Position numbers and translations under genes: made by a program. A stretch of 57,951 nucleotides of DNA from Cellulomonas rhizosphaerae (lineage in GTDB: Bacteria; Actinomycetota; Actinomycetes; Actinomycetales; Cellulomonadaceae), in contig NZ_QWKP01000212.1 of the NCBI RefSeq assembly GCF_003470205.1, forward strand, positions 1 through 57,951. Direction: 5' to 3'. Of this stretch, positions 7,377 through 27,764 are shown in pieces. Position 1 is the first letter of the stretch; each line of letters opens with the position of its first letter. The notes under the pieces were generated by a model. It made no database searches. It saw nothing but the letters and a program-made list of their open reading frames with translations, and was not told the origin of the DNA.

Positions 7377-8201
7377 TCAGGACGCCTGCGTCGCCCGAGC
7401 GTGGGTCAGCGCCCACTCGAGCGCGTGGTCGGCCACCTCTTCCCAGCCGGGCTCGGCGCAGATCCAGTGCGAGCGGCCGGGGAACTCCACGTACTCGGTG
7501 ATCGCCGGGGAGTGGCGGTAGTGCTTGGCGTTCGACTTGTTCACGGACGGCGGCATGATGTGGTCCTCGCTGCCGCCGATGAACAGCAGCGGGGCGCGGT
7601 CGGCGGCGTAGTCGACCCACGTCTCCTGGTGGCCGGGCTTGAAGTTGGCGATGAGCCCGTACGCCCACACCCAGTTGCCGGGCGCGGCGATCGCGTACTT
7701 CTCCCACACGGCGTCCGACTCCTCGCGGGACAGGGTGTTGGCGAACGCGTAGTGGAACTCCTCGGCCGTGAACCCGACGGCCCGGTGGTAGTTGGCCGGG
7801 TTCTTCAGCGCCGGGAACAGCGACCTGGCCTGCGACAGCGGCGTGACCCGCACGCCCTCGGTCGGGGCCGAGTCGACGACGACCGCCGCGGCGCCCAGGC
7901 CGCGCGCGAGCAGGAGCTGGGTCAGGGTGCCGCCGAACGAGTGGCCGATGATGATCGGCGGCGCGTCGAGGGCCTCGATCTGCCGAGCGAGGTGGTCGAC
8001 CGTCTCGGGGACGGTGAGCCTCGCGATGACGTCGGGGTTCTCCCGCAGCGCCTCGACCTCGATCTCGAACCCCGGGTAGGCGGGCGCGAGCACCCGGAAG
8101 CCCTTCGCCTCGAAGTGCGCGACCCAACCCTCCCAGCTGCGCGGGGTCATCCACAGTCCGTGCACGAGCACGATGGTGTCCGGGGCGTTCGTGTCAGGCA
8201 T
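7377..8201 (-). CDS. Alpha/beta hydrolase
   Basis: 274 residues; ATG 8201 follows a GGAAGGAA ribosome site. The fold is shown by an oxyanion stretch VLVHGLWMTP, the nucleophile elbow GHSFGG (Ser88), an acid region FIGGSEDHIMPP and a late His in FPGRSHW. This is a soluble esterase/lipase-like enzyme; the substrate is unknown. It lies 44 bases downstream of a second hydrolase on the same strand, so the two are probably cotranscribed, and both sit downstream of a LuxR-type regulator. Confidence 0.88.
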   Translation of the reverse strand: MPDTNAPDTIVLVHGLWMTPRSWEGWVAHFEAKGFRVLAPAYPGFEIEVEALRENPDVIARLTVPETVDHLARQIEALDAPPIIIGHSFGGTLTQLLLARGLGAAAVVVDSAPTEGVRVTPLSQARSLFPALKNPANYHRAVGFTAEEFHYAFANTLSREESDAVWEKYAIAAPGNWVWAYGLIANFKPGHQETWVDYAADRAPLLFIGGSEDHIMPPSVNKSNAKHYRHSPAITEYVEFPGRSHWICAEPGWEEVADHALEWALTHARATQAS

Positions 8202-9164: not shown

Positions 9165-11891
9165 TCAGGGCCGCGGCAGCACCTGGGCGAGCTGGCGGCG
9201 CGAGGTGACGCCGAGCTTCCGGAACACCTTGCGCAGGTGGTAGTCGACCGTGTTCGCGCTGATGAACAGTGCCGCCCCGATCTCGGCGTTGGTCTCGCCA
9301 GCTGCGGCCCGGCGCGCGATGGTCGCCTCACGGGGGGTCAGGTCGACGGAAGCGCCGTCGCCGCGGGGCGGGACGTGCTCGCCCGTGGCGGCGAGCTCGG
9401 TGGCGGCTCGTCGGGCGAATGCCGGGGCCTCGATCCGCTCGAACGCGGCCACGGCGACGCGAAGGTGCTCGCGCGCGTCGACCCGGCGCTTCTCGCGGCG
9501 CAGCCACTCGCCGTACACGAGGTGGGCGCGCGCCAGGTCCGCGGGGGTCGCCGACCGTCCGAGCCAGCCGATCGCGGCGAGGTACAGCGCCTCGGCCTCG
9601 TCGGGCGGGGCGAGCAGCGCGGCGCTGCGGGCCGCGAGGCCGCGGATCCACGGCGTGCCGCTCGCGCGCGCGAACGCGTCGAGCTGATCGGCAGTCTCCC
9701 GCGCGGCGGCGACGTGACCGCTGCGGACCGCGGCCTCCACGTAGTCGGGCAGCTGCCCGTAGGTGACCTGCAGGAACGGGCGCTCGATCATCGGCCGCAG
9801 TCGCTCGTACGCGTCCCGGTAGTGGCCCTCGGCGATGTCCCGCACGCTCAGCCCGGTCATCGCCACGGTCCACGCGCCGCCGAACCCCATCGGCACGAGG
9901 GCGTCGGCGATCGCCTGGATCTGCTCGCGCGGCGCGCCCGCCCAGGCGAGGTAGGCGACGTTGACGACCTGCTCGGCGGGATATCCCATCGCCCGGCGCA
10001 GCTCGCGGACCTGCTCGACGTACCGCCCGGCCGCTGCCGGGTCGCCGCGCACGAGCTCGACGAGGCTCAGCAGCCACAGCGACGCGTCGAGCATCTGCAG
10101 CGAGCCTGCCTCCCGCGCGACGCGGGCGGCCCGCTCGAGGTCGTCGATGCAGGACCTCTCGTCCCACAGCGCCATCGACAGCGCGATGCCGAAGTACCCG
10201 ACGTCGAGGAGCTCCGCGTCGGGGATCTCGGCGATCGTCGCGAGAGCGGCACGCATCGCGGGGACCGCCTGCTCGTAGGGCAGCAGGATGTGGGCACTCA
10301 GGCCGCGCAGGGCGGACGCGCGCGGCCCGGGTGCGACGTCCGCCCCGGCCGCGAGCCGGTGCCCCAGCTCGTCGAGGGTCACGCCCTGCATCAGCCACTC
10401 CGCGGGCAGGGCGACCTCGAACGCGCGGATGAGGGTGCGCTGCTCGCGCGCGGGGTCGACGCCGTGGAACGCGCCGGCGGCGCGCAGCAGGTTCGCGGTC
10501 CCCGCGACGATGCCGGCCGGGTCGGCCATGAACGTCGCGAGCAGCGCGCGCGTGGCGATGGCCCGGCCCCGTCCCACGCGGTCGAGCTGGTCGGGGTCGA
10601 GCCGGTCGAGCAGCGCGATGCTGTGGTGCGCGGCGCCCACGGCGGCGGCGGCCTCGGCGGCGTCGAGGAGCCGGGCGTCCCGGCCGGGACCGGGCGGGCT
10701 GAGCTCGGCGGCGCGTTCGAGCAGGCGCGCGCGTGAGGCCAGCCCGCCGCGCATCCCTGCGCGGTCGGCCGCCGCGCCCAGGCGTGCCGCGACCGCCTCG
10801 TCGGTCCCGACGACCGCCGCGGCCGCGTGCCACACCTCGAGCTCGTGCGCTCCCTCGGCGGCCGACGCCCCGGCCAGGGCCGCGTGGATCTCGCGCCGAC
10901 GCGGACCAGGCAGCGCCCCGTACACGGCCGCGCGGACGAGCGGGTGGCGGAACTCGATCGTCCGCCCGGCGACGACGAGCCCGGCGGTCTCGGCGGGTTC
11001 GCCCGCGTGTGCCGCGATGTCGAGCGCGGCACAGGCCTGTGCGACGAGGGACGGCTCGCCCGACGACTCCGCGGCGGCGACGGCGAGCCACGCGCGCGTC
11101 GGGCCGGGCAGCCCGCGGACCTGCGCGAGGTAGTGGGCCTCGAGCCGGGACCCGATCGGGACGGGGTAGGGCTCGGCGCCGACGACGCCGCCGGCGGCCA
11201 GCTCGGGGGACAGGTCGATCAGGGCCAGGGGGTTGCCGCCGGTGGCCGCCGCGATGCTGCTGGCCACGCGCGGGTCGACGACGCCGCCCTCGACCGAGCG
11301 GTCGGCGAGCGCGGCGGCCGCGACCGCGTCGAGTCCGGCGAGCTCGAGGTCGGGCAGCCCGGGGAGGTCGGCCGCGCCGCGCGCCGCGAGCAGGAGCGCG
11401 ACGCGCTCGGCCTGGAGCCGGCGGGCGACGAACGCCAGGACCTCGCGCGACTCGAGGTCGAGCCAGTGCGCGTCGTCGACCACGCAGACGAGCGTCTGGC
11501 GTCGGGCCGCTGCCGCGAGCAGCCCGAGCAGGCCGAGGCCGACGAGGAACCGGTCGGGTGGGTCGCCGTCGGAGGTGCCCGTCGCCACCGCGAGCGCGGC
11601 GCGCTGCCGGTCCGGGAGCGCCGCCTGCTCGTCGGCCAGCTGCAGGACCAGCCGGTGCACCCCCGCGAAGGCCATCGTCGACTCGGCCTCGTAGCCGTCG
11701 GAGCGCAGGATGCGGACGTCGGGCAGGTCGTGCGTCGCGGCGGCCAGCAGCGCCGACTTGCCCATGCCGGGGTCCCCGCGCACGAGCAGCGTCCCGCTCG
11801 TGCCGTTGCGGGCAGCCGTGATCGTCGCGCCGAGACGCCGCAGCTCGTCGGCGCGACCAAGGAGCGGGGCGGCCACGGTGGTGATGGCCAT
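9165..11891 (-). CDS. Large ATP-binding LuxR-family (LAL/MalT-like) regulator
   Basis: 908 residues. An N-terminal STAND/AAA-type NTPase has Walker A GDPGMGKS (39-46) and a Walker B-like [11 protein letters not shown] long helical, TPR-like middle follows. A C-terminal LuxR HTH ([20 protein letters not shown], then [16 protein letters not shown]) lies at about 850-905. Members bind ATP and an inducer, then activate nearby promoters. It sits immediately upstream of the two hydrolase genes on the same strand (85-base gap), which makes them candidate targets. Confidence 0.92.
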
Positions 11892-20289: not shown

Positions 20290-20316
20290 CCCCTTGCCGA
20301 GTGCCCGCCTGACCGC

Positions 20317-20368
20317 CCGAGTGCGCCTCAAACCACGGGCGCACTCAAGCGTTTGGGGGCGCACTCGG
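20317..20368 (+). terminator. Nested, mutually exclusive hairpins after the permease
   Basis: CCGAGTGCGCC (20317) can pair over 11 bp with GGCGCACTCGG (20358), with a further CAAAC/GTTTG stem inside it. Alternatively GAGTGCGCC (20319) pairs over 9 bp with the nearer GGCGCACTC (20338). Likely a terminator for the exporter operon. Confidence 0.6.
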
Positions 20369-20399
20369 CATACCAGGACGCAGGGGGCGTGGACATGCG

Positions 20400-20443
20400 T
20401 TGACTTTGCCTCGGGCACGTGGCTAGATTTCGTACTGATCTAG
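20400..20443 (+). promoter_or_regulatory. Promoter and dyad upstream of the Cys leader peptide
   Basis: TTGACT (20400) and TAGATT (20424) with an 18-base spacer fit a sigma-70-type promoter. The -10 lies within a dyad, CTAGAT (20423) and ATCTAG (20438), 9 bases apart, which may be an operator. Transcripts would start about 30 bases before the leader-peptide start. Confidence 0.6.
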
Positions 20444-20471
20444 TCGGGATTAACGAGGAAGGGGATGTGCC

Positions 20472-20519
20472 GTGATTGCCGTCTCCATGCCCCTCGCCTG
20501 TTGTCGCTGTTGTCGCTGA
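20472..20519 (+). CDS. Polycysteine leader peptide (15 aa), putative cysteine attenuator
   Basis: GTG 20472 stands 8 bases after AGGAAGGGG and encodes MIAVSMPLACCRCCR-stop. Four of the last six residues are Cys, made by a perfect tandem repeat of the 9-mer TTGTCGCTG (20501-20518). The last Cys codons fold into a hairpin with downstream bases (20509-20515 with 20522-20528, one wobble) followed by a C-run. Short Cys-rich leader ORFs act as cysteine-responsive attenuators ahead of sulfur genes in mycobacteria. Here the next gene is an LLM flavin monooxygenase, so cysteine control of organosulfur use is inferred. Confidence 0.75.
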   Translation: MIAVSMPLACCRCCR

Positions 20520-20591
20520 CCCGACGACCCCCCGCGCCCCTCGCCGCTGAGCGAGCGCGTGCGCGCCCTCTTGCGACGAACTGGATCCGCC

Positions 20592-21668
20592 ATGACCTTC
20601 TCCACCCACACCCTCGCCCACCTCGGCCTCGACCTCACGGAGACCCGAGCCCGCGCCGCGTCCTGGAAGGACGTCGGCTCGACCGCCGCCCGTCCGTTCG
20701 ACGGCGCGCACCTCGTCGAGCTGGTCGATCTCGCCGAGCGCGGGACGCTCGACTTCGTCCTGTTCGACGACGACTTCACGCTGCAGGCGTCGCGCAACAC
20801 GACCCTGCGCGGCCGGCTCGACCCGGCCCTGATCGCCGCCCGGCTCGGGCCACGCACGCGCCGGGTCGGCCTGGTGGCGAGCGTCGGCACGCAGCACACC
20901 GACCCGCGCGACGTGGCCCAGGCGGTCGCGTCGATCGACCGGGCGTCCGGCGGGCGTGCCGCGTGGCAGGTCGGCGGCGGGGCGACGCCCGGCCACCGGA
21001 TCGACGTCGCCGCCGAGCAGGTGCAGCGGGCCTGGGACCGCTGGGAGGGCGCCGCGCCGCAGCCGGTCGATCCCGGTCGCGGTCGGTACGTCGACGTCGA
21101 GGGCATCCACTTCGCGGCGAGCGCCCGCACCACCACGCCGCCGCCCCCGCAGGGGCGCCCGCCGGTGGTCGTGCGGCTCGGGGACGCCGGGACGCTCGAG
21201 GTGGCCGCGCGGTTCGCCGACGTGGTGCGGATCCGGGCGACGAACCGCGAGGAGGCGCAGCGCCTGACTGCGCAGGTGCTCGACGCGGTGTCGGGTGCCG
21301 GACGCGACCCGCGGGACGTGCGCGTGCTCGTCGACGCGTTCGTCGTGCTGGCGGGTGACGAGGCCAGCGCAGAGGCGCGCCTCGAGCTGCTGGCCGAGCT
21401 CGAGGGTGTCGCGGGGGATTCGGGCTCGCTGGTCTACGCCGGGACTGCGACCGGCCTGGCGGACCTCGTCGGCGACTGGGTCGGGACCGGCGCCGGCGAC
21501 GGCTTCACCGTCCGCCCCGCGTCGCTGCGGACCGACCTGACCGAGCTCGTCGAGCACACGGTCCCGGCGCTGCGTGCCGCGGGCCTGTTCCGCGACTCCT
21601 ACCCGGGCACGACGCTGCGCGAGACCCTGGGCCTGACCGCGCGGGAGGCGCTCGCCGTCAGCGCGTGA
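20592..21668 (+). CDS. LLM-class flavin-dependent monooxygenase (NtaA/SsuD/DszA-like)
   Basis: 358 residues from ATG 20592, 72 bases after the Cys leader peptide. The luciferase-like barrel is shown by the N-terminal THTLAHLGLDL, FVLFDDDF, the VGLVASVGTQHTDP strand and the ASGGRAAWQVGGGA region. FMNH2-dependent members oxidise sulfonates, dimethylsulfide, thiophenes or chelates such as NTA. The upstream Cys attenuator argues for release of sulfur from an organic compound, but the exact substrate is not visible. No reductase partner is adjacent. Confidence 0.85.
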   Translation: MTFSTHTLAHLGLDLTETRARAASWKDVGSTAARPFDGAHLVELVDLAERGTLDFVLFDDDFTLQASRNTTLRGRLDPALIAARLGPRTRRVGLVASVGTQHTDPRDVAQAVASIDRASGGRAAWQVGGGATPGHRIDVAAEQVQRAWDRWEGAAPQPVDPGRGRYVDVEGIHFAASARTTTPPPPQGRPPVVVRLGDAGTLEVAARFADVVRIRATNREEAQRLTAQVLDAVSGAGRDPRDVRVLVDAFVVLAGDEASAEARLELLAELEGVAGDSGSLVYAGTATGLADLVGDWVGTGAGDGFTVRPASLRTDLTELVEHTVPALRAAGLFRDSYPGTTLRETLGLTAREALAVSA

Positions 21669-22566: not shown

Positions 22567-24408
22567 GTGGCCGAAGAGCTCGTCTCGCCCATCCGCCAGG
22601 GAGCGCACGACATCGCGCTCGACCGGGAGCGCATGCGCCGCCGACGGTTCTACCGGCTCGCCGTGGTGGTGCTGCTCGTCGAGGCGTACGTCATCGGCGG
22701 GGCCTTCGCCGGCTGGTCGATCATCCCGCCGCTGCCGCACGTGGACCCGTTCCTGCTGACGATCATCCTGTTCTTCGGGCTCATGCTGCTGGTCGTCGTG
22801 GGCACGCAGATGGGCGGCGGGCGCTCGCCGCACCTGACGTACCGGCCCGAGCAGATCGACGTCGGCCTCGACGACGTGGTCGGCATCGACCCGGTCAAGG
22901 AGGACGTGCGCCGCTCGATCGACCTGTTCCAGACCCACCGCCGGTTCGCCGACCAGATGGGCGGCTCCCCGCGCCGCGGCCTGCTGTTCGAGGGGCTGCC
23001 GGGCACGGGCAAGACGATGACCGCCAAGGCCATGGCTGCCGAGGCCGGCGTGCCGTTCCTGTTCGTCTCGGCGACCTCGTTCCAGTCGATGTACTACGGC
23101 GCCACGGCCAAGAAGATCCGGTCCTACTTCAAGGCGCTGCGCAAGGCCGCGCGCGCCGAGGGTGGGGCGATCGGCTTCATCGAGGAGATCGACGCGATCG
23201 CGATGCGCCGCGGCGGGATGGCCTCGGCCATGACTGCCTCCCCCATGCAGGGCTTCCACCGCGGCCTGGTCACCAACCAGGTGGTCTCCGAGGGGACCGG
23301 CGGCGTCGTCAACGAGCTGCTGGTCCAGATGCAGTCGTTCGACGAGCCCACCGGCGGCGACAAGATGTACAACCGCCTGGTCGCCCGCGTGAACCTGTTC
23401 CTGCCGGCGCACCGCCAGATCCAGCAGCGCAAGCCGGGCCGCGCGCCGATCCTGCTCATCGCCGCGACCAACCGCGCCGACTCGCTCGACCCCGCGCTCC
23501 TGCGTCCGGGCCGGTTCGACCGGCACCTGACGTTCTCGACGCCCGACGCCCTGGGGCGCCGCGACCTCGTCGACCACTTCCTGGCCCGGCGCGCGCACGA
23601 CGCCGAGCTCGACGAGCCGACGATGCGCGACCGCGTGGCTGCGGCGACGAACGGCTGGACCCCGGTGATGATCGAGCACCTGCTCGACGAGGCGCTCGTC
23701 AACGCGCTGCGCCGCGGCTCGCTGACGATGTCGTTCCACGACGTCGAGCAGGCGCGCATCACGGAGATGGTGGGCATCGGCCAGCCCGTGCGGTACACGG
23801 CCGCCGAGCAGGAGCTCATCGCCACCCACGAGGCCGGGCACGCGACCGTCGCCTGGCTCGTCGCGCCGAACCGCACGCTCGAGGTGCTGACGATCGTGCG
23901 CCGCGGCGACGCTCTGGGCCTGCTCGCGCACGACGACTGCGAGGAGGTCTGGACCCACTCGCACTACGACCTCAACTCGCTGGTCCAGATCGCCATGGGC
24001 GGATGGGTCGCCGAGGAGCTGTTCTTCGGCCAGACCTCCACCGGTCCGGCCGGGGACCTCGCCTCGGCGACCCGGACCGCGGCGCAGATGGTCGGCGCCG
24101 CGGGCATGACCGGCTCGCTCGTCTCGTTCGCCGCGACGCCGCACGACCTGGTCTCGGCCGTGCTCGCCGACTCGAGCGCCCGGGAGAGCCTCGAGACGGT
24201 GCTCGACGACGCCCGCAGCCACGTGCGCCGGCTCCTGAGCCGCAACCGGCACCTCGTCGAGGCACTGCGGGACGCGCTGCTCGAGAGGTACGAGCTGATC
24301 GGGCCGGAGATCACCGACGTGCTGGAGGCCGCGGCGCAGACCCCGGCCCCTGCGCCGGTGACGCCGCCGACCGGCACCCCGCTGGCCAAGGTGCTGCACG
24401 TCGCCTGA
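22567..24408 (+). CDS. FtsH-like membrane AAA protease, divergent paralogue
   Basis: 613 residues from GTG 22567 after GAAAGGA. Two N-terminal helices flank a short loop. The AAA module has Walker A GLPGTGKT (about 143), Walker B-like GFIEEIDAIA (the usual Asp is Glu), and the second-region-of-homology segment ATNRADSLDPALLRPGRFDR. The M41 protease site is HEAGH (421-425), with EELFFGQTSTGPAGDL supplying the third ligand. About 45 extra residues sit between Walker B and the ATNR strand compared with classical FtsH. ATPase and protease sites look intact. Confidence 0.9.
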   Translation: MAEELVSPIRQGAHDIALDRERMRRRRFYRLAVVVLLVEAYVIGGAFAGWSIIPPLPHVDPFLLTIILFFGLMLLVVVGTQMGGGRSPHLTYRPEQIDVGLDDVVGIDPVKEDVRRSIDLFQTHRRFADQMGGSPRRGLLFEGLPGTGKTMTAKAMAAEAGVPFLFVSATSFQSMYYGATAKKIRSYFKALRKAARAEGGAIGFIEEIDAIAMRRGGMASAMTASPMQGFHRGLVTNQVVSEGTGGVVNELLVQMQSFDEPTGGDKMYNRLVARVNLFLPAHRQIQQRKPGRAPILLIAATNRADSLDPALLRPGRFDRHLTFSTPDALGRRDLVDHFLARRAHDAELDEPTMRDRVAAATNGWTPVMIEHLLDEALVNALRRGSLTMSFHDVEQARITEMVGIGQPVRYTAAEQELIATHEAGHATVAWLVAPNRTLEVLTIVRRGDALGLLAHDDCEEVWTHSHYDLNSLVQIAMGGWVAEELFFGQTSTGPAGDLASATRTAAQMVGAAGMTGSLVSFAATPHDLVSAVLADSSARESLETVLDDARSHVRRLLSRNRHLVEALRDALLERYELIGPEITDVLEAAAQTPAPAPVTPPTGTPLAKVLHVA

Positions 24409-26840: not shown

Positions 26841-27764
26841 ATGGAACTGCGCATCTTCACCGAGCCCCAGCAGGGCGCGACGTACGACGACCTCCTGGCG
26901 GTCGCGAAGGCCACCGAGGACCTGGGCTTCGACGCCTTCTTCCGCTCCGACCACTACCTGTCGATGGGTGACGGCGACGGCCTCCCGGGCCCGACCGACG
27001 CGTGGACGACGCTCGCGGGCCTCGCGCGCGAGACGAGCCGCATCCGCCTCGGCACCCTCGTCTCGTCGGTCACCTACCGGCACCCGGGCATCCTCGCGAT
27101 CCAGGTCGCGCAGGTGGACCAGATGTCCGGCGGCCGCGTCGAGCTCGGGCTCGGCACGGGGTGATTCGAGCGCGAGCACGCGGCGTACGGGATCCCGTTC
27201 CCGGCCAAGCGGTTCGGGATGCTCGAGGAGCAGCTCGAGATCGTCACCGGGCTGTGGGAGACGCCCCTGGGCGAGACGTTCAGCCACGCCGGCGAGCACT
27301 ACTCGCTGGTCGACTCCCCGGCGCTGCCCAAGCCGGTCCAGCCGAAGATCCCGATCGTGATCGGCGGCTCCGGCCCGCGCCGGACCCCGGCCCTCGCGGC
27401 CCGGTTCGCGGACGAGTTCAACCTCGTCTTCCCCGACGCCGACGCGGTCGACGGTCGCCTCACGGCGATCCGCACCGCGCTCGACGAGGCAGGCCGCGAC
27501 CCGAGCACCCTGACGCTCTCGATCGCTCACGTGCTGTGCACCGCTGCCGATGAGCAGGGGGTGAATCGCCGCGCGGCCACCATCGGTCGCGACCCCGAGC
27601 AGATGCGCACCGACGGTTTCGGTGGCACTGCGAGCGAGGTCGTCGACCGCCTGGGCGCGTTGCAGGAGAAGGGCGTGAAGCGTGCATACCTGCAGGTCCT
27701 GGACCTGCACGACCTCGACCACCTGGAGTTCGTCGCGAACGAGATCGCCCCACAGCTCGCCTGA
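26841..27764 (+). pseudogene. LLM-class (F420-type) oxidoreductase interrupted by in-frame TGA
   Basis: One frame from ATG 26841 to 27764 encodes a full luciferase-like oxidoreductase (308 codons), except for TGA at 27162-27164. The break falls in GLGTG-stop-FEREHAAYG, where homologues carry Trp (GxGWFxxEH), so it is a TGG-to-TGA change. The rest is intact on both sides (ELRIFTEPQQGATYDDLL, then KIPIVIGGSGPRRTPALA). The first half ends without the barrel core and should be inactive. Recent loss, a sequencing error, or readthrough would all look like this. Confidence 0.85.

Follow-up and report, generated by a model that had tools for sequence, protein, structure and literature searches.

The Locus and Its Elements

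We analysed a stretch of 57,951 nucleotides of Cellulomonas rhizosphaerae (hereafter the window), which comes from a genome of 3.66 Mb with ~70-77% GC in 2-kb steps. At positions 20472-20519 of the plus strand lies a short open reading frame (ORF) of 15 codons plus stop (GTG ATT GCC GTC TCC ATG CCC CTC GCC TGT TGT CGC TGT TGT CGC TGA), with a GTG start, a TGA stop and the encoded peptide IAVSMPLACCRCCR, followed after a spacer of 72 nt by the start of a gene for an LLM flavin monooxygenase (20592). The earlier note on this DNA had described a 15-codon ORF ending in ACCRCCR, with a good ribosome site and with Cys codons arising from a perfect 9-base tandem repeat, and our reading agrees with it on all these points: a Shine-Dalgarno (SD)-like AGGAAGGGG at 20456-20464 stands 7 nt 5′ of the GTG, and the two copies of the repeat occupy 20499-20507 and 20508-20516. 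The elements are listed below, where L041 and L042 are the loci which, together with the window, make up the three nearest sequences.

20400-20429, plus strand: sigma-70-like promoter TTGACT-18-TAGATT (1 match against a mean of 0.0 in shuffles)
20437-20448, plus strand: predicted transcript 5′ end GATCTAGTCGGG, whose first 8 bases (GATCTAGT, 20437-20444) complement the SD region of the LLM gene
20456-20464, plus strand: leader SD AGGAAGGGG, from reading of the sequence
20472-20519, plus strand: leader peptide ORF IAVSMPLACCRCCR with its stop (LVAVSMPLACCRCCR in L041, with a TTG start; VTVASMPRSCCRCCR in L042)
20499-20507, plus strand: repeat 1 TGTTGTCGC (Cys-Cys-Arg), of which 20501-20507 can pair with 20573-20579
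20508-20516, plus strand: repeat 2 TGTTGTCGC (Cys-Cys-Arg), of which 20509-20515 can pair with 20522-20528
20522-20528, plus strand: CGACGAC 3′ of the stop, complement of repeat 2, the same in L041 and L042
20573-20587, plus strand: GCGACGAACTGGATC, that is, the complement of repeat 1 and then the weak LLM SD (GGA) within the complement of the 5′ end
20592-21668, plus strand: LLM flavin monooxygenase, NtaA/DmoA-like by its TIGR03860 and PF00296 scores
21685-22470, plus strand: tyrosine-phosphatase-family protein, 16 nt 3′ of the LLM stop

At the position of the window promoter, L041 and L042 carry TTGACA and TACATT, and the transcript is predicted to start near 20437, about 35 nt before the GTG, which would make the leader, with its Cys codons clustered near the end, the first ORF of the transcript. 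The SD region of the LLM gene (ACTGGATC, 20580-20587) can pair with the predicted 5′ end GATCTAGT, the corresponding 5′ end in L041 (GATCCAGT) being a perfect complement and that of L042 an imperfect one, whereas GCGACGA (20573-20579), directly 5′ of this SD, can pair with 20501-20507 of repeat 1. The ATG at 20592 is the favoured start of the LLM gene because of a one-base indel found just 5′ of it in L042. No terminator-like site was detected in 20290-20720, where a trp-type intrinsic terminator with a U-run is absent, and an Rfam scan gave no match near the leader. When twelve leader peptides were compared with the NCBIfam models, eleven lacked any match; the twelfth, from the Ornithinimicrobium locus L101, hit CbiG with an E-value of 0.0032 and 17.6 bits against a cut-off of 261, which we judged to be chance.

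The LLM Gene and Its Probable Link to Sulfur

The LLM protein of the window scores 77.3 bits against PF00296 (luciferase-like monooxygenases), above the gathering cut-off of 27.9, and 167 bits against TIGR03860 (NtaA/DmoA), below the cut-off of 279.7, which the orthologue at locus L062 exceeds with 287.3 bits. It matched 14 solved sequences, the best one being an EDTA monooxygenase. Sulfur enzymes are represented among them by YtnJ (1yw1, 1tvl), MoxC, a dibenzothiophene desulfurization enzyme and a dimethyl-sulfide monooxygenase, and others act on nitrilotriacetate, riboflavin or hexachlorobenzene; with such a mixture of substrates, a sulfur role is likely rather than proven. The sulfur-scavenging role suggested for this enzyme in the earlier note is backed by what surrounds the gene in relatives, namely the operon content described here and the SAM-IV riboswitches described below. 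Judging from these comparisons, the enzyme would most likely act on an organosulfur compound and feed the cysteine supply.

Homologous LLM genes were surveyed at 38 loci of Cellulomonadaceae type, with flanks of up to 8 kb and some shorter contigs. Downstream of the first LLM gene, 30 of them have a second one (in L072, in pieces), 20 have a cystine-like ABC transporter and 9 have transporter genes of oligopeptide type. The operon at L062 illustrates this organization, with LLM1 and LLM2 (TIGR03860, above cut-off), DUF1684, a permease, an ATPase, a binding protein and an FAD oxidoreductase. The best NCBIfam models for its permease and ATPase are those of a cystine permease and of TcyN, both under the cut-offs, and its family 3 binding protein finds a lysine/arginine/ornithine model first and a cystine one next. 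The LLM genes of the window, L041 and L042 stand alone before the tyrosine-phosphatase gene, which is perhaps co-transcribed with the LLM gene, since it follows it in L041 and L042 as well. In a tree of 30 LLM rows, of which 14 of the 27 inner branches are open, these three sequences group with L044 and L050 (support 99/98), two loci with SAM-IV, leader and transporter and without LLM2. By eye, many of the loci L043-L078 show a GAACGGA-like stretch in place of a strong SD before LLM1.

Two further regions of the window were recorded. The region 22567-24408, 3′ of the phosphatase gene and 97% identical in L041, encodes an FtsH-like AAA/M41 protease (277 bits against an FtsH equivalog cut-off of 600), and 26871-27656 holds a second, distant LLM-type stretch with 28% identity to the first (the tblastn match runs past one TGA), which we take to have an F420-type look.

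A Conserved Cysteine Leader with an Unusual Codon Choice

A Cys-rich tail occurs in 2 of the 472 distinct short ORFs of the window (8-60 aa, both strands), and only the ORF at 20472-20519 has by eye an SD. Among named relatives, the LLM gene comes closest to that of Cellulomonas sp. PhB150 (L041), with 93% identity, followed by that of C. edaphi, with 82% in the best segment, and a close form of the gene is present in 3 of 81 genomes of the genus, the source genome included. We looked for leaders more widely, at 80 named loci of LLM relatives (the best 80 of 472 found), taking as a leader any ORF of 6-60 aa that lies no more than 500 nt upstream of the LLM gene and matches C.?C within its final 14 residues. 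The 38 Cellulomonadaceae-type loci are those in records named Cellulomonas, Cellulosimicrobium, Oerskovia, Sanguibacter, Luteimicrobium and Antribacter, plus L048, whose record is named Sphaerisporangium but aligns with Cellulosimicrobium.

Such an ORF precedes the homologous LLM gene in 29 of these 38 loci, which include close species and are thus not independent, and a strict form, with CC within the last 4 residues, in 24. The controls gave far lower figures: 21 of 737 random windows of the same size from these loci (1 in the strict form) and 8 of 190 dinucleotide shuffles (2 strict). The other actinobacterial loci yielded 2 of 42, against a random-window background of 48 of 813. Nine of the 38 have no such ORF, and L054, L073 and L074 show no plausible leader by eye. 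A looser search found leader candidates in 36 of 40 sources (the window, the 38 loci and L101) and none in L054, L066, L073 and L074, a separate reading showing a Cys-containing ORF in L066. The earlier note had named missing Cys codons upstream of orthologues as the outcome that would speak against its proposal, and the 29 Cys-rich ORFs leave that proposal standing. It is this conservation that lifts the leader above chance, the fold of the window alone being unremarkable.

The leaders of the family are many unlike sequences (e.g., ACCRCCR, SSCCPGAGSGALSTCCR, MCCSPGRPVVPGRVCC and LLCRSCFVGCCTCC), which differ widely in the number and spacing of their Cys residues. In the three nearest sequences the DNA of the 21-nt Cys tract is identical, and there a constraint on the peptide is indistinguishable from one on the RNA. 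An extension across the order with the Ornithinimicrobium LLM gave homologues in 24 of 297 genomes (25 loci), three of which satisfied the Cys definition, two in the GTDB family of the window and a third, all TGC, that we judged to be chance; a convincing Cys leader outside the family of the window was found in none of the 25. A search for Cys-Cys-Arg-stop codons was tried as a leader finder and discarded: it returned 22 genome places against 10 for the reversed pattern, and 15 of the 22 were without an in-frame start codon.

The codon choice of these leaders is peculiar. In 32 of them (the 36 minus L048, L049, L052 and L067, a few entered from an inner start), TGT makes up 97 of 126 Cys codons. 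The genes of the window and the 38 loci, called with a simple GC3-based procedure, use TGT in 73 of 927 cases; short ORFs that are Cys-rich by chance, taken from other parts of the 38 loci, do so in 61 of 335. The GC3 of the non-Cys codons of the leaders stays at 0.81-1.00. One tRNA is expected to read both Cys codons.

Leaders of this kind also stand before a second gene family. Of the 49 places found for the sulfite reductase gene, 30 were fetched, and in a raw count 23 of these loci, own genome included, have a short Cys-rich ORF ahead of the gene, with TGT in 77 of 122 Cys codons (one locus gave two ORFs). In the own genome, some 110 nt lie between the stop of ISSGFVSARRHCCALMTARPAMPSIVMCCCPRSN and a sulfite/nitrite reductase gene (PF01077), downstream of which come two genes of the PAPS-reductase family and one of the GTPase family. 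The Cys-rich leader of this sulfite reductase/PAPS reductase cluster (contig 97; L152, 1498-1605) has mixed TGT and TGC codons. As leaders before LLM and sulfite reductase genes are both TGT-biased, the group as a whole seems to make use of cysteine leaders, the one before the LLM gene among them. Contig 80 offers another case, where a third LLM gene, of the MsnO8 type, lies in an operon (L007, minus strand 8942-118) with the leader candidate SSCLCAAGRTARQACQAC, ended by a stop, and a SAM-IV riboswitch (9321-9428) on the opposite strand faces divergent transporter genes; with a Cys-leader candidate on one side and SAM-IV on the other, both sides of the divergent region look sulfur-controlled.

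Folding of the Leader RNA

The earlier note had also proposed that the Cys codons form a hairpin with the bases after the stop, and that a ribosome stalled under Cys shortage would open it. The hairpin part holds as a possibility of pairing, with a helix of 7 pairs, one of them U-G, between 20509-20515 of repeat 2 and 20522-20528, in a fold which is unremarkable with respect to shuffled sequences (z = -1.49; a fold as good or better is reached by 13 of 200 shuffles). In the predicted free RNA of the window, the LLM SD is taken up by the 5′ end, and GCGACGA and CGACGAC pair with repeats 1 and 2, respectively. As to the stalling part, the fold model of the window leaves the LLM SD unpaired with a probability of 0.12 in free RNA and 0.15 with a ribosome on the stop codon, whereas a ribosome on any one of the four Cys codons raises it to 0.40-0.56, a profile that would be what a cysteine sensor needs. 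It does not carry over to relatives: the corresponding values are 0.10 free against 0.13-0.14 stalled in L041, and 0.47 against 0.43-0.48 in L042. Across 36 leaders, stalling eased SD opening by more than 1 kcal/mol in 3, no more often than a ribosome on the stop codon (5 of 36) or one placed 36 nt upstream (4 of 36), and SD release on stalling was not borne out as a family-wide rule. The consensus fold of the three nearest sequences has a covariation term of +0.18, that is, no net support; one helix near the leader SD shows three both-sided changes among the three, and in the Cys-repeat helices most pairs are invariant and thus prove nothing.

SAM-IV Riboswitches Upstream of the Leader in Relatives

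A second regulatory element came to light in the relatives. Rfam recognized the SAM-IV riboswitch (RF00634) in 13 of 20 loci submitted, one of these being the divergent site of the own genome, and from the 13 positive loci we built a model of our own (R1). With it, SAM-IV was found on the same strand and up to 650 nt upstream in 27 of the 38 Cellulomonadaceae-type loci and in 3 of the other 42 (L083 and L101 within 425 nt, L096 at about 940 nt). The window gave no match to RF00634 in Rfam or to R1. In 26 loci (25 of the 38 plus L101), SAM-IV ends 19-56 nt before the start of the leader, whose SD falls in this gap. A consensus fold of 14 loci, from SAM-IV to past the leader start, recovered the aptamer and showed no clear pairing of the leader SD, so that gating of the leader by SAM is something that we infer. 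Seven SAM-IV sites of the own genome were inspected, and none has a convincing Cys leader within 600 nt, one offering a weak candidate.

In the order-wide set, 10 of the 25 loci of related LLM genes carry SAM-IV, 5 of them within about 105 nt of the gene, 4 about 1 kb before it and 1 being a Cellulomonas leader locus already counted. At L187, L190 and L197, a related LLM gene that lacks a Cys leader starts 56-103 nt after the end of SAM-IV. Altogether, these arrangements suggest a series made of SAM-IV alone, SAM-IV plus Cys leader, and Cys leader alone, the last one in the clade of the window, a series whose order of events would be conjectural. Outside the Cellulomonadaceae type, L101 (Ornithinimicrobium, 7580-7853) shows SAM-IV, then a leader ending in CRCCCSPCCL and then the LLM gene, possibly an independent case of the combination.

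A Putative Cysteine Sensor and Its Alternatives

Our main reading, to which we give a probability of roughly three in four, is that the product of 20472-20519 is a leader peptide through which the supply of charged tRNA-Cys is gauged and the LLM enzyme is controlled in cis. Comparison points to it through a conserved Cys leader that looks translated, a preference for TGT, sulfur-linked operons and SAM-IV upstream in relatives; the response to cysteine is what we infer from them. With plentiful cysteine, ribosomes would translate the four TGT codons without pausing and come off at the stop codon, after which the transcript 5′ end and the first Cys repeat would cover the LLM SD and little enzyme would be made. 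When cysteine is short, a ribosome would stall on the rare TGT codons and sit on the repeats, and LLM expression would proceed.

How such a sensor is connected to its output could differ within the family. Rho may load on the naked C-rich stretch after the leader has been read through, unless a stalled ribosome blocks it, and this we regard as possible, though less likely than not. The lack of a terminator-like site and the family-wide failure of the SD-release fold model fit with it, as do the leader-LLM spacers, which are long (106-381 nt in 33 of 36) and show a negative GC skew in 36 of 36 cases (-0.16 to -0.35, median -0.28, a value reached by ~1% of random windows); in Bordetella, moreover, PMC9426467 describes a uORF that has a Cys motif, comes with a C>G bubble and acts through Rho. 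The skew is not specific, however, since 13.8% of 65 upstream regions of other genes at the same loci also reach -0.28, and the window has a short spacer (72 nt) for which structure is predicted. For the window we thus favour a switch that would act on translation rather than through Rho, whereas for relatives with C-rich spacers of 106-381 nt an output through Rho would be at least as likely. Both share the sensor, and their odds accordingly overlap.

The remaining explanations dispense with sensing of tRNA-Cys. Sensing of a metal, a thiol or the redox state by the nascent Cys-Cys peptide is quite improbable: CCRCCR could conceivably bind a metal, and the CXXC of the copper uORF CruR provides a precedent in the account given in PMC9426467, but a preference for the rare TGT concerns decoding and not peptide chemistry, the number and spacing of Cys vary widely between leaders, and a leader of this kind also stands before the sulfite reductase gene. 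An ORF without regulatory function is unlikely as well, whether its Cys codons are a chance reading of some conserved RNA or promoter element or the ORF serves constitutive coupling. The identity of the tract DNA in the three nearest sequences and a fold slightly better than most shuffles would agree with this; against it, unlike leaders share Cys-rich ends all over the family, which a single RNA motif would not give, and the random-window, shuffle and chance-ORF TGT controls argue in the same direction. Finally, long ORFs overlap on several frames in this high-GC DNA, where an open frame alone says little, yet a spurious ORF is hardly credible in view of 29 of 38 loci against 21 of 737 random windows, the TGT bias and an SD that by eye is unique among 472 ORFs.

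Returning to the leader as a gauge of charged tRNA-Cys, the SAM-IV riboswitches allow a more tentative extension, which we consider possible rather than probable. In Cellulomonadaceae-type loci, both elements may form a nested two-input switch for organosulfur salvage, where SAM-IV would gate translation of the Cys leader and stalling on rare UGU codons would turn the LLM operon on only if SAM and cysteine are both low. The window would then be an end state that has lost the riboswitch and keeps the Cys sensor alone, and the use of UGU over UGC would tune this sensor. The TGT bias bears on whether synonymous codon choice tunes attenuators, and such a preference at the sensing codons offers a simple signature for unannotated cysteine leaders in high-GC genomes.

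Comparison with Known Systems

Mycobacterial leaderless polycysteine short ORFs reportedly respond to cysteine (Canestrari and colleagues, in 2020). A passage of PMC13236596 cites these cysteine-responsive ORFs, and an earlier hint of them appears in part of PMC4633059. The likeness to this attenuator layout, advanced in the earlier note, stands as far as the ORF is concerned: a Cys cluster at the end of a short ORF lies upstream of sulfur or cysteine genes, is conserved before the orthologous and presumably sulfur-related LLM genes (29 of 38 loci), and in both cases stalling is proposed to relieve a blocked translation of the next gene, a release seen here in the fold model of the window and in neither L041 nor L042 nor as a family-wide rule. 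It does not extend to the start, since the mycobacterial ORFs are leaderless whereas the leader of the window has an SD and a predicted 5′ leader of ~35 nt. Other differences are the target, here an LLM monooxygenase, the Cys codons, mostly TGT, and the SAM-IV found 5′ of the leader in many relatives. In the latter, SAM-IV (RF00634) precedes the homologous operon and the Cys leader ORF lies between riboswitch and LLM gene.

The ytn cluster of Bacillus subtilis is linked to amino-acid transporters. As described in the sections of PMC12757645 on S-alkylcysteine salvage, the scm and ytn clusters of this bacterium recover cysteine from modified cysteines by means of FMN-dependent monooxygenases, the enzymes in which they resemble the LLM locus, and carry in addition genes for an acetyltransferase and a deacetylase. 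In M. tuberculosis, the transcripts of metE and ppe2 each combine a riboswitch with a translated uORF that modulates the gene (PMC11260477); the ligand is B12, and the abstract does not present the uORF as an amino-acid sensor. The Streptomyces lividans leader before metNIQ, listed as methionine-dependent in table 4 of PMC8079986, carries CMCRRMC, and with three Cys residues it might sense cysteine instead.

Our searches of open-licence PMC papers brought up neither such a leader in Cellulomonadaceae nor a combination of SAM-IV and Cys leader in series. By comparison, there is good support for a leader that responds to cysteine and controls a sulfur-salvage enzyme. If this holds, cysteine-sensing leaders would occur outside the mycobacteria, and organosulfur scavenging would join cysteine synthesis among the functions that they control; there would be a physiological clue to a poorly characterised LLM operon, and a riboswitch and an amino-acid leader would be found working in series on one transcript.
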